A DNA stretch of 40,815 bases, from contig JAISJU010000177.1 in NCBI GenBank assembly GCA_031261165.1, forward strand, positions 1 to 40,815, written 5' to 3'. The position numbers were made by a program, and so were the translations under genes. This document shows, piece after piece, positions 14,703 to 40,747 of this stretch (its first letter is position 1; each line of letters begins with the position of its first letter). Under the pieces are notes generated by a model. That model was not told the origin of the DNA and searched no databases. It was given only the letters and a program-made list of their open reading frames with translations. The DNA comes from Prevotellaceae bacterium. Lineage in GTDB: Bacteria; Bacteroidota; Bacteroidia; Bacteroidales; Paludibacteraceae.

Positions 14703-14801
14703 CGCAAATGACGCAAAAAACGCAAATTTTCGCAAAGCATATTTTATTGATTATCGGTAAAATATATTTTGCGAAAATTTGCGTTTTTTGCGTCATTTGC
14801 G
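14703..14801. repeat. Foldback element, 'CGCAAAT' family (copy 2), between convergent genes
   Basis: Arms of 44 bases (14703-14746 and 14758-14801) match at 42 of 44 positions around an 11-base loop. The arms start CGCAAATGACGCAAAAAACG. It separates terC from the convergent MalY-like gene and could terminate both strands. It shares the CGCAAATGACGCAAA start with the element at 39606. Confidence 0.8.
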
Positions 14802-21476: not shown

Positions 21477-22661
21477 TTATAGTTTCCTGCATTTCATCAT
21501 CACTCTCCGCCCATCAAAAAGCGTAGTAGCAAAAAGATACACCTCTCCGCCATCAGCAATTTTCAATTTTCGGCGCAGATTTTCAGCCGTTTCGGGGAAG
21601 TTTCGCACGGCGATGTTTGCTTGTTTTACATTAATTTTTTTCGATAAAAAACATTCTTCCACCTCAAAAACTCGCCCCTGAAAGTCAATGCAAAGTGTTT
21701 CGGAAGTATATAAATGGCTGTTCGGGTGCAGTTTTTTCAGACTAAATCTTTCGGCAATCAGTTTATACGCGCCCGCTTTCAAGAGGGCTGCATTCGGCTC
21801 ATACAAATACTTTTCGGGATTTTCGGCAAAGCGGCAAACGGCATTTCGTTCTTCGTTCAAAGTAAAAGAAAAGCGTTGCACAGGCGCGTTCTTCGGAAAA
21901 TTGACAGCAACAAGTTTAGGCTCACTCGGAACATCTTTTTTCAAAAGAAAAAGCAACTCCTTACACTCGTTTTCTACGGCTACAACGTGAATTTCCGCCA
22001 CATTCCGAAGTTCTTTGACTGCCTGCGAAATATCCAACATCGGCGAAGTTTTTATCAAAACCGTTTCCGATTTTTGCAGCAGCGCGGGCAATATTTCCAA
22101 AATATTCGGCTCGCAATCGGCAAAGGCAGCCACTTTTTTGCCTCGCACATCTCGGCGGGCGGGGTCTATAAAAATACAATCAACTGTTTCTGTTTTCTTC
22201 AAAAAATCAACGGCATCGGCATTCTCCACATTAATATTATGCAAGCCCAACACCGAAAAATTATGTTTTGCCGTTTCGCAAAGGTCGGCATTGCGTTCCA
22301 CATAAATTGTTTTCGAGAATGTCTGCGACAAAAACGCCGTATCTACGCCCATTCCGCCGGTCAAATCGAGCAACGTGGTTTTGTCATTGCGGGCGCGACC
22401 CGCAATCCCCTTTCCGATTAAAGTAGTCTTATACAAAGCCGTTTGTTCAGACGAACTCTGTTCAACGGAAATCTGTGCAGGAAAAACAATCTCGGCAGTT
22501 TCGTACCACGCAGGCAGTTTCGCACGCGCGTGCTGGCGTGCCTTGATTTGCTGCAAAGCGAAAGGCACATCTACTTCGGCATTCCGCTTGGCGGACAATG
22601 CTAATTTTGACACGTCTTCGTTGATGTGGTCAATGATGAATTGTCCGGTGGCAGCATTCAC
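21477..22661 (-). CDS. Class I SAM-dependent methyltransferase with THUMP-like domain (PG_1098 type)
   Basis: The 394-residue product has a helical N-terminal part, a Rossmann methyltransferase core (SAM motif LLDLTGGMGVDTAFLS near residues 97-112, IYVERNADLCETAKHNF for motif II, and the catalytic-type IFIDPARRD near 168) and a C-terminal THUMP-like region. This architecture matches the PG_1098-type family, thought to act on RNA, though no substrate is proven. A palindromic repeat at 22381-22410 is translated in frame as GIAGRARNDK, immediately before the SAM motif, and lengthens the protein there. The gene overlaps the TRIC-channel gene by four bases (ATGA), so the two are translationally coupled. 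Confidence 0.85.
   Translation of the reverse strand: MNAATGQFIIDHINEDVSKLALSAKRNAEVDVPFALQQIKARQHARAKLPAWYETAEIVFPAQISVEQSSSEQTALYKTTLIGKGIAGRARNDKTTLLDLTGGMGVDTAFLSQTFSKTIYVERNADLCETAKHNFSVLGLHNINVENADAVDFLKKTETVDCIFIDPARRDVRGKKVAAFADCEPNILEILPALLQKSETVLIKTSPMLDISQAVKELRNVAEIHVVAVENECKELLFLLKKDVPSEPKLVAVNFPKNAPVQRFSFTLNEERNAVCRFAENPEKYLYEPNAALLKAGAYKLIAERFSLKKLHPNSHLYTSETLCIDFQGRVFEVEECFLSKKINVKQANIAVRNFPETAENLRRKLKIADGGEVYLFATTLFDGRRVMMKCRKL
22381..22410. repeat. In-gene palindromic repeat (ATTGCGGG-N5-CCCGCAAT)
   Basis: ATTGCGGG (22386-22393), five bases, CCCGCAAT (22399-22406), flanked by TTGTC and CCCC. The same unit occurs twice in the lptG upstream region (25282-25311 and 25356-25386). 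Here it lies in frame within the methyltransferase gene. Confidence 0.8.
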
Positions 22662-25230: not shown

Positions 25231-25443
25231 CCTAAAGGGGATACTCTGCAAAGCCTCCTTTAGGGCAGGGCTGTTAAGTTCCTGTCATTGCGGGCTTGCC
25301 CCGCAATCCCCTGAAAAAAGGGATTCCGGCTTTCGTCAGAATGGCAAGCAGAAAAGGGGATTGCGGGTCAAGCCCGCAATGACAAAACTTACATTGTTCG
25401 GTATGTTTTACAAAGAACTTAACAGACCTGCCCTTTAAGGGAT
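25231..25443. mobile_element. Foldback element upstream of the LptG-like gene
   Basis: The outer arms CCTTTAGGGCAGGGCTGTTAAGTTC (split: 25257-25281) and 25415-25440 (inverted, imperfect) enclose two inverted copies of TGTCATTGCGGG-N5-CCCGCAATCCCC (25282-25311 and 25356-25386). A further CCCTAAAGGG-type palindrome lies at the left edge. There is no ORF. The region 25151-25464 is otherwise only a terminator. The same inner unit occurs in the methyltransferase gene. Confidence 0.7.
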
Positions 25444-25464: not shown

Positions 25465-26970
25465 ATGTTCAAAAAATTAGATAGATACATTCTCAGGAAT
25501 TTCATCACGGTGCTTTTTGCCACCTTTTTCATCTGCCTTTTCATTCTGCTGATGCAGTTTTTATGGAAATATGTCGATGAAATGATTGGCAAAGGGTTGA
25601 GCCTGACTGTTCTCGCCGAATTTTTCTTTTATTCCGCCCTCACGCTCGTGCCGATGGCGTTGCCCTTGGCGGTTTTGCTTGCCGCACTGATGACTTTCGG
25701 CAATTTCGGCGAGCGGCTCGAACTCCTGGCGATGAAAGCGGCGGGCATCTCGCTGTTCCGTATCATTCGACCGCTGGTAATTGCCATTTCGTTTATCAGC
25801 ATCGGCGCGTTTTTCTTTGCGAACAATGTTATTCCGCATTCGCAGGTCAAACTCTGGACTTTGATTTATTCCATTCGCGATAAATCCTCCGAAATCGAAA
25901 TTCCCGAAAACGTGTTTTACCACGGCATCAGCGGTTACAGCGTATATGTGAAGGGCAAAGACCACAAACATAACCTGCTAAAAGACATAATGATATACGA
26001 CCTCTCGAAAGGCTTTGAAAACATCACGGTTACGGTAGCCGACTCGGCGCGGCTGCAATTTACTGACGACAAGCAATTTATCGTTTTCACGCTCTATAAT
26101 GGCGAATCTTTTGAGAATTTGAAAGACCAGAAAACCGCACGGAGCAACGTGCCTTACCGCCGCGAGTCTTTTCAGATGAAACAAACCCTGATAGAATTTG
26201 ACGGCAGTTTCACCAAAATGGACGAAAGTATGATGACCAACAAGTATGTGAGCAAAAATGTGCTGCAACTTGGGCGCGACATTGACACGTTCAACGTCAA
26301 AATCGACAGCCTTGCCCGCGATTTCAAACAGCAGGCAACGCGTTCGATGCCTTATTATCAGAATAATACGGACAATACGCGCCTCACGAACAAGCCTGTG
26401 GTTGATGTAAGCACCCAACTGAGCATTGACTCCTTATATAATACATTAAGTAATGATGATAAGCGCGAGGCAATTCGCCGCGCGTTGCAGGAAACGAGTG
26501 CGACAAGCAGCAGTCTGTCGTTCAAAAAATACGAAATAGAGGACAATCAGTATCTTTTGCGCCGACACGCCATTGAGTGGCATCGCAAATTCACGCTTTC
26601 CTTTGCTTGCCTCATTTTCTTTTTTATCGGCGCACCGCTCGGCGCAATTATCCGCAAGGGCGGTTTGGGAATGCCGGTTGTTATTTCCGTTTTCCTGTTC
26701 ATTATTTATTACATTATAGATAATACCGGTTACAAATTTGCCCGTGAGGGAATGTGGCAGGTGTGGGAAGGAATGTGGCTCAGTGCGGCGGTGTTGCTGC
26801 CCTTTGGTATCTTTTTGACTTACAAAGCCGCCAAAGATGCTGCACTGTTGAATGCAGATGCGTATGTTCTGGTTATCAAAAAAATATCAATATTGATTAA
26901 TCCATCTTCTTTGTATATAAAAGTATATAAAAAAACTATGAGAAAATTAACCGATAAACTGAATATATAA
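25465..26970 (+). CDS. LptF/LptG (YjgP/YjgQ) family permease
   Basis: The 501-residue product is an inner-membrane permease subunit of the lipopolysaccharide export family, which works with LptB to pull LPS from the inner membrane. Three transmembrane helices lie in residues about 13-120 (with the conserved LDRYILRNFI start and ERLELLAMKAAGISLFRIIRPL coupling region). A periplasmic beta-jellyroll domain follows at about 130-300 (GYSVYVKGKDHKHNLLKDIM). Three more helices lie at about 380-465 (IFFFIGAPLGAIIRKGGLGM). It is longer than enterobacterial LptG (about 360) because of a charged, low-complexity insert (about 270-360), typical of Bacteroidetes members. It is transcribed from downstream of a foldback element. 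No other lpt gene is adjacent. Confidence 0.92.
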   Translation: MFKKLDRYILRNFITVLFATFFICLFILLMQFLWKYVDEMIGKGLSLTVLAEFFFYSALTLVPMALPLAVLLAALMTFGNFGERLELLAMKAAGISLFRIIRPLVIAISFISIGAFFFANNVIPHSQVKLWTLIYSIRDKSSEIEIPENVFYHGISGYSVYVKGKDHKHNLLKDIMIYDLSKGFENITVTVADSARLQFTDDKQFIVFTLYNGESFENLKDQKTARSNVPYRRESFQMKQTLIEFDGSFTKMDESMMTNKYVSKNVLQLGRDIDTFNVKIDSLARDFKQQATRSMPYYQNNTDNTRLTNKPVVDVSTQLSIDSLYNTLSNDDKREAIRRALQETSATSSSLSFKKYEIEDNQYLLRRHAIEWHRKFTLSFACLIFFFIGAPLGAIIRKGGLGMPVVISVFLFIIYYIIDNTGYKFAREGMWQVWEGMWLSAAVLLPFGIFLTYKAAKDAALLNADAYVLVIKKISILINPSSLYIKVYKKTMRKLTDKLNI

Positions 26971-34870: not shown

Positions 34871-37075
34871 TTGACAGGCGTGCCAACTACCGTATGTCCG
34901 AGTGCCAATGCCGTATCTGTAACGGCAAATGTAATCGGCGGTACAGCATCTTATACTTACGCTTGGACAGGTGCAACAGGCTCAACAGCCAATGTGTCTG
35001 TAACCATTCCGGCTACTTGCGGCAATGTGAATGTAAAAATAGACATCACAGATGCCAAAGGCTGTACGGCTACAAATGATGCAGATATTACGGTGGCAGA
35101 TAATGTTGCCCCGACCGGTACTGCTCCTGCCGGCACAAACAATATCAATGCTTGTTTTGTAAATGCTACGACAATGCCTGTGGGTGTTCCCGCCTTTAAT
35201 CCGACAGCAGCGGCAGCGGGCTATACGGATAATTGCGCTGGCACCGTAACCGCAACTTTGACCGGTACGAGTGTAACAGGCAATAATTGTTCTTGGACAG
35301 GTACTTACACCTTTAAGGTATCCGATGCTTGCGGCAATGAATTGACAAATCAGACAATTGTTTATACCGGCGGCGATAAAACCGCTCCGACCGGCACTGC
35401 TCCGAGTGGCACAACAAACATTAACGCTTGCTTTGTAGATGCAAGTACGATGCCTTTGGGTGTTCCTGCTTTTGCAACTTTAAATGCGGCAACTGGTTAT
35501 ACCGACAATTGTGGCGGCACAGTAACCGCAACATTGACCGGAACAACAGTAACAGGAACAAATTGTTCTTGGACAGGTACTTATACCTTTAAGGTATCAG
35601 ATGCTTGTAATAATGAATTGACAAATCAGACAATTGTTTATACCGGTGGCGACAAATCTGCTCCTACATTTGGTTTAAGCGGAACAACGGCTAATCCGGA
35701 TGAGGCAGGAAATTGTGTTTTTGAAGTTCCCGATTTGGAAAGTTTAGTAATAAGCAAAGCCGATAACTGCACGGCAGCGGGAAGTCTTATTTATACGCAA
35801 ACACCTCCGGCAGGTACGGTAATAACCGCCGACCAAGTAGTTTCGATAACCTTAACGGACGCTTGCGGAAATGTAAGTGCGGCGCAAACAGTTACGGTAC
35901 AATATGGCAACCCGAATCCAACGGCAAACATCACAAACATTACCGGCACCACTATATTGACTTGCGCAACCACAAGCATAAGCGTAACGGCAACCGGCGG
36001 CGGTACTTACGCTTGGGATAATGGTTTAGGTAGTGCTGCTGCTGCAACAATAACAAATACAGGCACTTACACAGTAACCGTAACCGCCGCAAACGGTTGT
36101 ACGGATACAGAAAGCATAACCATAACGGACGACAAAACCAAACCGACCGCAGGCATTACGCCGAGCGGAACAGAATTGTCTTGTTCGGTACCGAGCATTA
36201 CGCTGACACCAAACGGCGTTGGCAGTTATGTATGGCTTGACGGAACGGCAACCATAACCGAGCCGGGCGATTATCGTTTGGAAGTAACTGCCGCCAATGG
36301 CTGTAAAGATACGGCAACAGTAACTATTACCAAAGATAATACCCCCAATACTAAACTTCCTTTGAACAAACCGGCATCTGTATGTGAAAATGCAGCATTT
36401 GAATTGCCGGCATTGACAGATGCGGATACTTATTATGAGTATTCTATTAATGGTATTGACTGGCTAAGGCTGAACGACAGAATGCGTAGTGCAGCAGATA
36501 ATCATTGGTATCGCGTTAATTCAAGCCTTCCGTGCGTGCATTATTCGGACTCGGTAAAACCGGACATCGTTCCGCCGATAACCGGTTTGATACTGGAGTA
36601 CGAAAACATCAGCGCACAATCCCATCAGGACAAAGAAATGGTAACGCCGGGTCAAACGGTGCAAGTGAAGTTGAATATGGATAATCTCGGAAATTATCAA
36701 TGGAACGATGGCAAAAAAGACACGACAACCGTAGATAATACGCTGACAATCCGCCTCTACAAAGACCGTAAAATAACGGTAGTAGCCGACAACAACGGCT
36801 GTCCGTCAGAGCCTGCGGAAATAGATATTCCGGTTATCTGGCCTACCGCCATTACGCCCTACACCAAAGACGGCTACAATGATGACTTTATACCCGAAAT
36901 CAATTGCCATATAATAATCTTCAACCGCTACGGACAAAAAGTGAGCGAAGGCAACAACGGTTGGGACGGTACATATCGCGGCGCACTTGCAGACCCGGGA
37001 ACTTATATGTATGTGGTGAATTTGCCTGACGGCGAAGTGAAAAAAGGAACGATTGAAGTAGTGAAAATAAAATAA
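34871..37075 (+). CDS. Adhesin C-terminal part with type B T9SS sorting domain
   Basis: This open frame (734 residues from a TTG at 34871) is in the same phase as the preceding adhesin ORF and has no promoter, RBS or signal peptide of its own, so it is the tail of one 2483-codon gene. It holds the rest of a SprB repeat, two near-identical 92-residue HYR-like units (residues about 80-171 and 172-263, each with GYTDNC and SWTGTYTFKVSDAC), and Ig-like modules (TCATTSISVTATGGGTYAWD and SCSVPSITLTPNGVGSYVWL). It ends with a CHU_C/type B gliding-motility sorting domain (about 655-734: ITPYTKDGYNDDF, IIIFNRYGQKVSEG, NGWDGTYRG, DPGTYMYVVNL). Without readthrough or reversion it would not be made. Confidence 0.85.
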   Translation: MTGVPTTVCPSANAVSVTANVIGGTASYTYAWTGATGSTANVSVTIPATCGNVNVKIDITDAKGCTATNDADITVADNVAPTGTAPAGTNNINACFVNATTMPVGVPAFNPTAAAAGYTDNCAGTVTATLTGTSVTGNNCSWTGTYTFKVSDACGNELTNQTIVYTGGDKTAPTGTAPSGTTNINACFVDASTMPLGVPAFATLNAATGYTDNCGGTVTATLTGTTVTGTNCSWTGTYTFKVSDACNNELTNQTIVYTGGDKSAPTFGLSGTTANPDEAGNCVFEVPDLESLVISKADNCTAAGSLIYTQTPPAGTVITADQVVSITLTDACGNVSAAQTVTVQYGNPNPTANITNITGTTILTCATTSISVTATGGGTYAWDNGLGSAAAATITNTGTYTVTVTAANGCTDTESITITDDKTKPTAGITPSGTELSCSVPSITLTPNGVGSYVWLDGTATITEPGDYRLEVTAANGCKDTATVTITKDNTPNTKLPLNKPASVCENAAFELPALTDADTYYEYSINGIDWLRLNDRMRSAADNHWYRVNSSLPCVHYSDSVKPDIVPPITGLILEYENISAQSHQDKEMVTPGQTVQVKLNMDNLGNYQWNDGKKDTTTVDNTLTIRLYKDRKITVVADNNGCPSEPAEIDIPVIWPTAITPYTKDGYNDDFIPEINCHIIIFNRYGQKVSEGNNGWDGTYRGALADPGTYMYVVNLPDGEVKKGTIEVVKIK
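35108..35659 (+). repeat. Two tandem 276-bp units in the adhesin tail
   Basis: Units 35108-35383 and 35384-35659 encode 92 residues each beginning APTGTAP and ending IVYTGGDK. Long stretches are identical in DNA (for example AATTGTTCTTGGACAGGTAC), so the array could expand or contract by recombination. Confidence 0.85.
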
Positions 37076-37080
37076 AAAAC

Positions 37081-37194
37081 ATCTGAATCAGGATTTGCAG
37101 GATTAAAGGATTAACAGGATAAAACCTGAAATCCTGCAAATCATAAAATCCTGCGGTTATTGAGCGTAGCCGAAATGCAAATCCTGATTCAGAC
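37081..37194. repeat. CTGAATCAGGATT hairpin element, copy 1 (with insertion)
   Basis: The ends ATCTGAATCAGGATTTGCAG and AAATCCTGATTCAGA are inverted, with internal AGGATT/AATCCT repeats. It is nearly identical to 38538-38627 except for about 24 extra bases (about 37154-37178) containing TGAGCGTAGCCGAA. It lies between the adhesin and ompA-like genes. Confidence 0.8.
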
Positions 37195-37214: not shown

Positions 37215-38531
37215 ATGAAAAAGATAATCACAATAGTATTAGCAATCGGTTTGGCAACAAGTGCTTTTGCCATACACGAGAAATATGTGCAGGGCTATGA
37301 ATTTAAGCCCTCGAAAGTCAATACGGAAAGTAATGACCGGGCAATGTCGTTCCTGAAAAACAAAGTGGTCTATTCCGTGCAGGACACCGCTGCGGGCAGT
37401 GCCATCAAACTCTATGTAGCCGATGTTATTGAGCAGGATATTGAACTCGACAACGCCGAGTTTTCGCAAGAACTGACCGATTTAGGCATTTTCGGCACAT
37501 TTGCTTATGACGAAAGTTTGAATAAAATCTACTTTTCGCATTACGACAAAGCGACCAAAAATTATATGCTCTACGAAAGCACACAGACCGAAGAAAAAAC
37601 GTGGACATCGCCCAAACGCTTGAAAATAGCGGGTTTGCAGGGTTACCGCAAAGACGGCTCGCCGCTGGTGAATGCCGGCTGGCTTTATCGTGCGCCGGGT
37701 TTATCGGGCTTTTTCAATCCCACGCTGGCAGACGGCGGCAAACGCATCTATTTCTCTGCCGATTTCCCCATTGGAAATGGCGAACGCGATATTTGGTATG
37801 TTGAAAAAGAAGACGATACGCATTGGTCAATGCCCCAAAATCCGGGTACAAACGTCAATACCAAAGGCAAAGAGGACTATCCTTTTGTGATTGGCGATAA
37901 ACTCTATTTTTCGTCTGACACGGAAACAAACGGCGGCACAGACCTCTTTGTTTCCGAAAAAGAAGGCAATGCGTGGGGCGTTGCCAAGCCTTTGGACAGC
38001 GTTTATAACTCTTCGGCTGACGACTACAACCTGATTGGTACGGAAAACACCATCTTCTTTGTGTCCGGCAGGCACGAGGGCTATGCAGACGATATTTACC
38101 GCCCTGCACGCCTCTTGCTTGAGCCTTGCCCCACATTGGCAGAATCCACGCCCGAATCCGAGCCGATTATCCAAATGAAGACCTTCCCCTGGAAACTCTT
38201 CTATTTTGATTTCGACAAAGATATATTGAACGAGGAATTTCTTATCGAACTTGACCAACTTTACAATACGATGATTGACTTTATGCAGGATAACGACTTT
38301 GTCATTCGCGGACACACCGACTCGCGCGGCACCGATGAATACAATATGCGCCTATCCAAACGCCGTGCGCAACGTATTCAGAAACTGCTCGCCGAAAAAG
38401 GCATACCAGCAAAGATTATGCACATAGAGCCTTACGGTGAAAGTCAGCCGGTTATTCCCGATGCGCAAACGGAAGAAGAACACGCACAAAACCGCCGCGT
38501 AGAAGTGGATATTGTGAGAAAAAACAATTAA
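37215..38531 (+). CDS. OmpA-family protein with PD40/WD40-like repeats (T9SS-associated)
   Basis: The 438-residue product has a signal peptide (about residues 1-19, ending AFA). A beta-propeller-like region of PD40 repeats lies at about 90-300 (LSGFFNPTLADGGKRIYFSA, EDYPFVIGDKLYFSSDTETN, DDYNLIGTENTIFFVSGRHE). A C-terminal OmpA peptidoglycan-binding domain lies at about 325-437 (FYFDFDKDILNEE, IRGHTDSRGTDEYNMRLSKR, RRVEVDIVRKN). The domain order PD40-OmpA resembles PorE-type T9SS proteins without the TPR part. It probably sits in the periplasm, tethering outer-membrane machinery to peptidoglycan. It lies between the adhesin and the PorP/SprF gene, so it likely helps export or anchor the adhesin. 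Confidence 0.9.
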   Translation: MKKIITIVLAIGLATSAFAIHEKYVQGYEFKPSKVNTESNDRAMSFLKNKVVYSVQDTAAGSAIKLYVADVIEQDIELDNAEFSQELTDLGIFGTFAYDESLNKIYFSHYDKATKNYMLYESTQTEEKTWTSPKRLKIAGLQGYRKDGSPLVNAGWLYRAPGLSGFFNPTLADGGKRIYFSADFPIGNGERDIWYVEKEDDTHWSMPQNPGTNVNTKGKEDYPFVIGDKLYFSSDTETNGGTDLFVSEKEGNAWGVAKPLDSVYNSSADDYNLIGTENTIFFVSGRHEGYADDIYRPARLLLEPCPTLAESTPESEPIIQMKTFPWKLFYFDFDKDILNEEFLIELDQLYNTMIDFMQDNDFVIRGHTDSRGTDEYNMRLSKRRAQRIQKLLAEKGIPAKIMHIEPYGESQPVIPDAQTEEEHAQNRRVEVDIVRKNN

Positions 38532-38537
38532 AATAAC

Positions 38538-38627
38538 ATCTGAATCAGGATTTGCAGGATTTTAGGATTAACAGGATAAAACCTGAAATCCTGCAAATCA
38601 TAAAATCCTGAAAATCCTGATTCAGAC
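38538..38627. repeat. CTGAATCAGGATT hairpin element, copy 2
   Basis: This is the 90-bp version of the element at 37081-37194, again directly behind a gene of the adhesin locus. Its ends can pair (CTGAATCAGGATTT with AAATCCTGATTCAG). It could terminate transcription or stabilise mRNA ends. Confidence 0.8.
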
Positions 38628-39599: not shown

Positions 39600-39605
39600 A
39601 TGACT

Positions 39606-39698
39606 TTGAACGCAAATGACGCAAATTACACAAATTTCCGCAAATGATGCGAATAAATATTTGCGAAAAATTGTGTAATTTGCGTCATTTGCGTTCAA
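39606..39698. repeat. Foldback element, 'CGCAAAT' family (copy 3)
   Basis: Arms of 40 bases (39606-39645 and 39659-39698) match at 38 of 40 positions around a 13-base loop. The arms start TTGAACGCAAATGACGCAAA. It separates porP/sprF from the next promoter and shares its arm start with 14703. Confidence 0.8.
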
Positions 39699-39706
39699 AA
39701 AAGTAT

Positions 39707-40256: not shown

Positions 40257-40619
40257 ATGATTAGAACTTTTCAAAAAATACTTTATTTGTTTGTTGCATT
40301 GGTATTTAGCACTGCAACCTCTTTCTCGTGGGCAGCGGCTTTTCACGCCGAAGAAGTCAGTATTTCCTGCAAAAAAGCAGGTTTCTACGAACTGCAACAA
40401 ATCGGCGTTGCAAATATTGCCGTGCAACAAAAACAAGTCAATTCTTCCAATCACGGCAACGCGGGTGCTAAAATATTCAATAGAAACACGGTTTTCGGTA
40501 CCTTTGCTACACAACTTTTTTATAGAAATATTGAAATTCAATATGTTGCATTGGCAAAAACAATGAAAATCGGTTTGCCTGTGCAGAAAATTATCTTCCC
40601 ATCGCATTTTTTCTTTTAG
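40257..40619 (+). CDS. Small secreted orphan protein
   Basis: The 120-residue product has a signal-peptide-like N-terminus (about residues 1-26, YLFVALVFSTATSFSWAAA). The short polar and basic mature part shows no recognised domain. The ATG at 40257 lies 9 bases after the DUF2442 stop, so it may share that transcript. The stop codon (TAG, 40617-40619) falls inside the left arm of a foldback element, so the present C-terminus may have been shaped by that element. A 142-codon frame on the other strand overlaps it completely and looks like a shadow. Whether this gene is translated is uncertain. Confidence 0.5.
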   Translation: MIRTFQKILYLFVALVFSTATSFSWAAAFHAEEVSISCKKAGFYELQQIGVANIAVQQKQVNSSNHGNAGAKIFNRNTVFGTFATQLFYRNIEIQYVALAKTMKIGLPVQKIIFPSHFFF

Positions 40620-40713
40620 CACGCAGATAACGCAGATTTATAGGATTCTCGCAGATTTTTTATTACAGAAATCTGCGGAAATCCTATAAATCTGCGTCAT
40701 CTGCGTGCTAAAA
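40614..40713. repeat. Foldback element, 'CTGCG' family
   Basis: Arms of 45 bases (40614-40658 and 40669-40713) match at 42 of 45 positions around a 10-base loop. The left arm starts TTTTAGCACGCAGATAACGC. It is followed by an A/T tract and includes the stop codon of the small secreted gene. Confidence 0.8.
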
Positions 40714-40747
40714 AAAAAATAATAATCAAATAAAACAAAAGAAAAAA

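Follow-up and report, generated by a model that had tools for sequence, protein, structure and literature searches.

Palindromic repeats with a CGTC tag (CGTC REPs) are characterized, in the accessible text of Di Nocera et al. 2013 (PMC3733652), by a CGTC or TGTC (or CCTC) tag, an 8-9-bp stem that starts with A-T pairs, a loop of 4-5 nt and a short unpaired tail, mostly CCA; head-to-head dimers predominate, and in general there is no association with transposase genes. In the same text, Bacteroidetes are among the phyla listed, with G. forsetii named as CGTC-positive, intragenic copies are described in several species, and RPE-4 and RPE-6 of Rickettsia conorii are equated with CGTC REPs. The Rickettsia palindromic elements (RPEs), which are 105-146 bp long, are inserted in 19 protein reading frames according to the accessible part of a review, and in the available portions of this literature the insert-bearing enzyme encoded by Rickettsia gmk is reported to be active. 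Here, we compare with these systems a 29-nt palindromic unit that lies within a methyltransferase gene of a Bacteroidales-type genome, in a window (the whole stretch of DNA analysed) of 40,815 nucleotides.

A palindromic unit in a methyltransferase gene

The gene (21477-22661, minus strand) encodes a 394-residue PG_1098-type SAM-dependent methyltransferase with methyltransferase, ferredoxin-like and THUMP-like domains (Pfam: PG_1098_Fer, 5.7e-23; Thump_like, 2.3e-14; and methyltransferase models). Its sole sequence match in the PDB is 3ll7, that is, PG_1098 of Porphyromonas gingivalis. The repeat unit, located by exact sequence match, occupies positions 22382-22410 and reads on the plus strand TGTCATTGCGGG-CGCGA-CCCGCAATCCCC, or, split into its parts, TGTC-ATTGCGGG-CGCGA-CCCGCAAT-CCCC: the tag (22382-22385), an 8-bp stem ATTGCGGG/CCCGCAAT (22386-22393 and 22399-22406) around a 5-nt loop (22394-22398), and the tail (22407-22410). 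On the minus strand, in the frame of the methyltransferase, the unit is read as GIAGRARND, followed by K from the next codon, shortly ahead of the SAM-binding motif DLTGGMG (residues 99-105; 22347-22367, minus strand); NDKTTLLDLTGGMGVDTAF is a sample of the peptide across the repeat. The first-pass annotation, made from the sequence alone, had placed the start of the unit at 22381, one base early; the sequence that it gave is correct, and the palindromic repeat translated in frame in this gene is confirmed as a real observation.

Homologs were compared in two sets that may overlap in species, namely, relatives from the family and order (29 aligned, of which 28 have a readable loop and one is truncated) and 80 named genomes read out of 564 matching homologs. 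A GIAGRARNDK-type segment is absent in 28 of the 28 relatives with a readable loop, and the peptide is found in none of the 80 named homologs; thus, no homolog that carries the same peptide without the DNA repeat was encountered. Between the invariant residues K78 and D99, there are 10 residues in 56 of the 80 homologs, 11 in seven and between 13 and 37 in the other 17, compared with 20 in the window methyltransferase, which corresponds to a net gain of 30 nt over the usual spacing. The inserted segment, coding for GIAGRARNDK (residues 85-94), maps to 22380-22409 on the minus strand, with boundaries that are ambiguous by about one codon, the exact boundaries and any target duplication being judged from proteins with about 50% identity. 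In two homologs, L130 (20 residues) and L189 (21 residues), the loop reaches a similar length with no clear palindrome in it, so loop length alone is no proof of insertion. It could be argued that the protein has had this peptide for a long time and that the DNA coding for it resembles the repeat by chance. However, all 29 nt of the gene copy are identical to the repeat consensus save for two loop bases (CGCGA in place of the usual CTTGA), and, in addition to the lack of the peptide in the 80 named homologs and the 28 relatives, the alignment with 3ll7 has a 9-residue gap opposite the repeat; the probability of such a coincidence is negligible.

Judging from its sequence and model, the enzyme looks intact despite the insert. 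Across 81 sequences, 29 columns are invariant, D166, P167, R169 and R170 included, and all of them are conserved in this protein; the AlphaFold2 model built on homolog sequences (mean pLDDT 94.8, pTM 0.91) has 3ll7 as its closest fold match (TM 0.85). In this model, an irregular stretch (residues 87-95) connects a helix (72-86) with a strand (96-99), and block confidence goes down to 78 and 85 around the insert. Given this order of elements, the insert appears as a loop beside, and outside, the strand leading into the SAM motif; it is predicted to form a surface loop between the helix and the first SAM strand, the kind of location for which the first-pass annotation had proposed to check by modelling.

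Copies of the repeat in the genome and inside other genes

The genome (3.04 Mb, 225 contigs) contains 196 exact matches to the arm TGTCATTGCGGG, 99 forward and 97 reverse, with 0 occurrences of its reversed-letter control in the same genome, and the perfect palindrome ATTGCGGG-N3-7-CCCGCAAT is present in 135 places (control 0). Within the window alone, a 12-mer search with at most two mismatches yields seven matches against 3.9 expected, an excess that is not clearly beyond chance, with 9 of 100 shuffles reaching seven. The window also contains the two inverted intergenic copies that had been reported at lptG: the first (25283-25311, plus strand) and the second (25356-25384, minus strand) lie upstream of the LptF/LptG permease gene (25465-26970, plus strand) and fold as one hairpin (-63.4 kcal/mol, z -9.1). 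Among the two-unit clusters, 18 are arranged +-, with the tags outward, and three -+. The full palindrome is present in 11 of the 120 genomes of the family sample, which includes this genome, and high counts are found in only five of these (180, 135 in this one, 61, 56 and 28); the palindrome together with the tag and part of the tail is present in 2 of 395 genomes of the phylum sample, this one and another with one copy per orientation. The repeat family is patchy, which we infer to reflect recent amplification in a few lineages.

Several other repeats were noted as well. The spacer of inverted pairs often contains a third palindrome, of the TGTCATTCTGACGAAAGTCAGAATCCCC type (window 25312-25355; L086, L067, L084), which reads in frame as GDSDFRQND or CHSDESQNP. 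A repeat of the GACTTCGCTCAGCAACCA type is apparently nested in the palindrome loop in L006, L008, L028 and L109, with peptides such as GIAGHTSTSLSNQARND. Other long inverted repeats, of the CGCAAATGACGCAAA type, are found in the window at 14703-14801, 39605-39699 and 40608-40719, and a 90-nt repeat with 92% identity between its copies (37064-37153 and 38521-38610) is itself an inverted repeat, of the CAGGATTTGCAGGATT type.

Of the 196 places, we examined the 100 that come first along the contigs, a non-random set, together with the three units of the window, which gives 103 units in 73 clusters; the TGTC tag is present in all 103 by construction of the search. A stop-free frame of at least 120 codons contains 49 of these units, in 38 distinct ORFs, 37 of which were scanned against Pfam (the methyltransferase ORF was scanned separately). 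Judged by reading, 23 of the 103 units (20 of the 73 clusters) are inside 19 genes, all in an open frame, and protein-family evidence is present on both sides of the unit in 15 of these 20 clusters and on one side in five. Besides the methyltransferase, the genes concerned encode a ResIII-type helicase (L014), a PDDEXK protein (L015), ketoacyl synthases (L022, L087 and, twice, L088), RsmF (L028), a BcrAD-type ATPase (L067), MurF-Alr (L074), an RND transporter (L082), RF3 (L083), a glycosyltransferase (L086), AroE (L089), MiaA (L097), RibD (L098), two macroglobulin-like proteins (L099, L100), GH65 (L103) and a U32 peptidase (L109). Some of the cases counted are weak: in L015, L022, L087, L099 and L100, Pfam support is on one side only, in MurF-Alr the second arm is damaged, and RibD and the U32 peptidase have one palindrome arm only. 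Of the 49 units, those at the ORF start, likely upstream of the true start, were dropped (L001, L008, L073, L079, L081, L092, L093), and so were those in ORFs without convincing Pfam support (L006, L023, L027, L071, L076, L080, L084, L085, L090, L096, L104, L105). A codon-usage test of the flanks reached its threshold on both sides in 3 of the 73 clusters only, all three in frame; it was too weak, and the assignment to genes therefore draws on homology and open frames.

An example outside the methyltransferase is RF3, in which the unit adds 13 residues, CHCGLDPQTH and its neighbours. The net insertion is 39 nt, not 30, so the length of the unit alone does not keep the frame. RF3 contains a second in-frame insertion, of 14 residues, in the GTPase domain (codons around SASLSTSASTSLST), which comes from another repeat family; this second repeat, CTTCGACTTCGCTCAG, is found in 118 places of the genome (55+63) at no more than one mismatch (control 0). 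Both the 13-residue and the 14-residue insertions are absent in every relative aligned (18 of 18, the ones that passed the filter among 21 loci supplied). In AroE, about 41 residues separate GAVNVI from GYNSD, compared with 6-8 in the two displayed homologs of solved structure. Single units resemble the consensus to about the same degree inside genes and elsewhere.

Stops are present in two of the six frames of the unit, and the probability that 20 of 20 clusters are open by chance is (4/6)^20 = 3e-4, a value tempered by the fact that open frames had served to pick the candidates. This bears on the possibility that the element is present in the mRNA and not in the protein, whether because the ribosome skips it, because it is removed or because the genes are pseudogenes. 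The unit at 22382-22410 is predicted to fold into a stable mRNA hairpin (-14.6 kcal/mol, z -2.7), and some known bypass signals are hairpins. Yet the reverse search, for long same-strand frames on both sides of the repeat with a stop or shift in between, found no conserved gene cut at the repeat: its flags were gene ends (IspH then phosphofructokinase; the end of methionine synthase) or unsupported ORFs. With the invariant residues of the methyltransferase kept as well, a presence in mRNA only is quite improbable, and translation of the repeat is preferred. Since four of the six frames are free of stops, many landings in genes would be survivable. All four readable frames are used, by 10, 8, 4 and 1 units, a weak departure from equality (p 0.04; both from hand counts).

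In two genes, the repeat appears to provide the end of the protein: IspH (L085 463-1314) and a member of the YhcH/YjgK/YiaL family (L102 1362-2084) would both owe to it their final residues, SLRA, and their TGA stop codon.

The repeat is inside genes in other genera, too. In four other repeat-bearing genomes, 4 of 59 clusters are within Pfam domains, namely, in a chorismate synthase and a nitrogenase-type protein (G123) and in a decarboxylase and a radical-SAM/TRAM protein (G074). For the perfect palindrome, this compares with 13 of 47 clusters here (Fisher p 0.006; p 0.04 with two-sided cases only), a comparison that we do not rely on because the places are the first listed and not random. 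In the chorismate synthase of G123 (L199 57-1109), the repeat is in frame, with an adjoining repeat-like peptide. These cases are also relevant to a possible artefact of assembly or binning in a fragmented genome, given that assemblers break or misjoin at repeats. In 18 of the 73 clusters, the contig ends too near the repeat for the flanks to be analysed, which makes it probable that the repeat interrupts the assembly of this 225-contig genome. A misjoin, however, would bring together different genes, whereas the flanks belong, by reading, to one protein family and are in frame in 15 clusters, and the same repeat is found inside genes of other genera; an artefact is very improbable as the origin of the in-gene units.

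The same methyltransferase loop in other lineages

Two other methyltransferases contain repeats of a different, GTAG type in the same loop. In L164 (Bacteroidales RGIG10078, 2001-3239), the loop is 37 residues long and contains GTAGAGACGCACGGTCGTGCGTCTCT, the first 25 bases of which have 10+9 matches in the genome of L164 at up to two mismatches (control 0). In L169 (Lentimicrobiaceae SIG105, 1538-2809), the loop of 36 residues contains GTAGAGACGCGTCAATG, present in 40+27 places of its genome at up to two mismatches (control 0). When the 17 homolog loops of at least 13 residues were tested for palindromes against 300 shuffles, a long palindrome without mismatches emerged in L164 only (10 bp, matched by 1 of 300 shuffles). 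The palindrome in L169 is 5 bp long (matched by 160 of 300 shuffles), and this insert was identified from the fact that its first 17 bases recur 67 times in its genome at up to two mismatches. In the L146 and L179 loops, the stems are 6 bp long (matched by 9 and 12 of 300 shuffles, respectively), and L130, L161 and L189 are long loops without a clear palindrome. Three different palindrome families would thus appear, from sequence comparison, to have entered one methyltransferase loop in three lineages, although the repeats of L164 and L169 both begin with GTAGAGACGC and could be relatives. The presence of GTAG-type repeats, unrelated to the one described here, in two other lineages suggests that this loop is a recurrent landing site; given the long loops without a clear palindrome in L130, L161 and L189, loop tolerance suffices as an explanation, without active targeting.

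Recurrent entry into one loop could alternatively indicate that the inserted peptides have been domesticated and alter enzyme function to the gain of the host, all the more as several of the decorated proteins (RF3, MiaA and RsmF) work on RNA or in translation. The decorated proteins are of many kinds, however, the four readable frames are all used, and the loop length of the homologs, from 10 to 37 residues, points to tolerance. Domestication is therefore unlikely; the added peptide is predicted to have little or no effect on the enzyme and most likely has no function.

Very probably, then, a unit of a high-copy CGTC-type REP entered the coding sequence of the methyltransferase, where it is translated along with the rest; the DNA repeat and its copy number, the excess of 30 nt over the spacing usual in homologs, the frame that stays open, the conserved rest of the enzyme and about 20 similar cases are observed directly. 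Translation and retention of the unit can be attributed, we infer, to a tolerant surface loop. In the mechanism that we propose, a non-autonomous palindrome would spread over the genome, often as inverted pairs able to fold into one hairpin, its movement presumably helped by an enzyme encoded elsewhere. Most of the landings seen are intergenic or affect the end of a gene, whose stop codon may then come from the repeat itself, and a minority would be in frame, in tolerant loops, and translated. Broken genes presumably are lost, and translation of the survivors would be the simplest reading. We further consider it somewhat more likely than not that this Bacteroidales-type lineage is undergoing a wave of in-frame palindrome insertion throughout its proteome, comparable in extent to that in Rickettsia, and, at the same time, that the loop preceding the SAM motif was entered recurrently and independently by unrelated palindromes in at least three lineages of Bacteroidota. 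The 19 genes come from about half of the copies of one family; all copies would perhaps bring the number to 35-40, to which families such as the second one in RF3 would be added.

Relation to known palindromic repeats

The debate on selfish palindromes as a source of new protein peptides has so far drawn chiefly on Rickettsia and Wolbachia. With its many decorated housekeeping enzymes and its repeat-free relatives, a Bacteroidales-type genome offers an unrelated second case for comparing how such peptides are inserted, tolerated and possibly used, and one loop entered by three unrelated repeat families would be a direct readout of the tolerance of a protein to insertion. Gene callers and protein models should anticipate inserts of the CHCGLDPQSP, GIAGQARND and GLRVKPAMT types.

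The repeat fits the CGTC-tagged REP superfamily. It shares with these REPs the tag, the 8-bp stem, the first A-T pairs, the 5-nt loop, the dimers in opposite orientation, the copies in genes and the lack of a repeat-flanked tyrosine transposase (here, the Y1_Tnp class was examined), and the CGTC tag itself is present in further copies at L025 and L028. The least fitting feature is the tail, which is short and C-rich but mostly CCCC rather than CCA; the second repeat nested in the loop of some copies, the Bacteroidales-type host and the large in-gene share also set it apart. GTAG-tagged REPs with RAYT transposases are similar as short tagged palindromes, and two GTAG-type families are in the same methyltransferase loop elsewhere. 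In contrast to these, the tag and stem of the present repeat differ, and no unit flanks any of the 4 Y1_Tnp genes in this genome at a distance of up to about 1.5 kb.

With the RPEs (RPE-1; RPE-4, RPE-6), the repeat shares the in-frame presence of palindromes in many unrelated conserved genes, where they are read as peptides; the 19 frames counted for RPEs in the accessible part of the review compare with 19 genes here from about half of the copies of one family. It is much shorter than the RPEs (29 nt versus 105-146 bp) and has other sequences and a host from another phylum, with relatives, as judged by the methyltransferase, among Bacteroidales. On these sequence features, it appears to act like an RPE but is not classed as one. 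The parallel with Rickettsia drawn in the first-pass annotation proves closer than analogy, given that the available text of PMC3733652 places RPE-4 and RPE-6 in the same CGTC REP superfamily. The accompanying remark that such cases are little described in Bacteroidetes applies to the in-frame decoration of proteins, but not to REPs as such, for which Bacteroidetes are listed, nor to intragenic copies, both covered in the accessible sections of PMC3733652. The accessible parts of the open literature contain no report of in-frame REP decoration in Bacteroidetes, with earlier in-gene cases in G. forsetii being possible. Thus, the kind of element is known, and what is new is protein decoration on the Rickettsia scale in a Bacteroidales-type genome, together with the shared methyltransferase loop.
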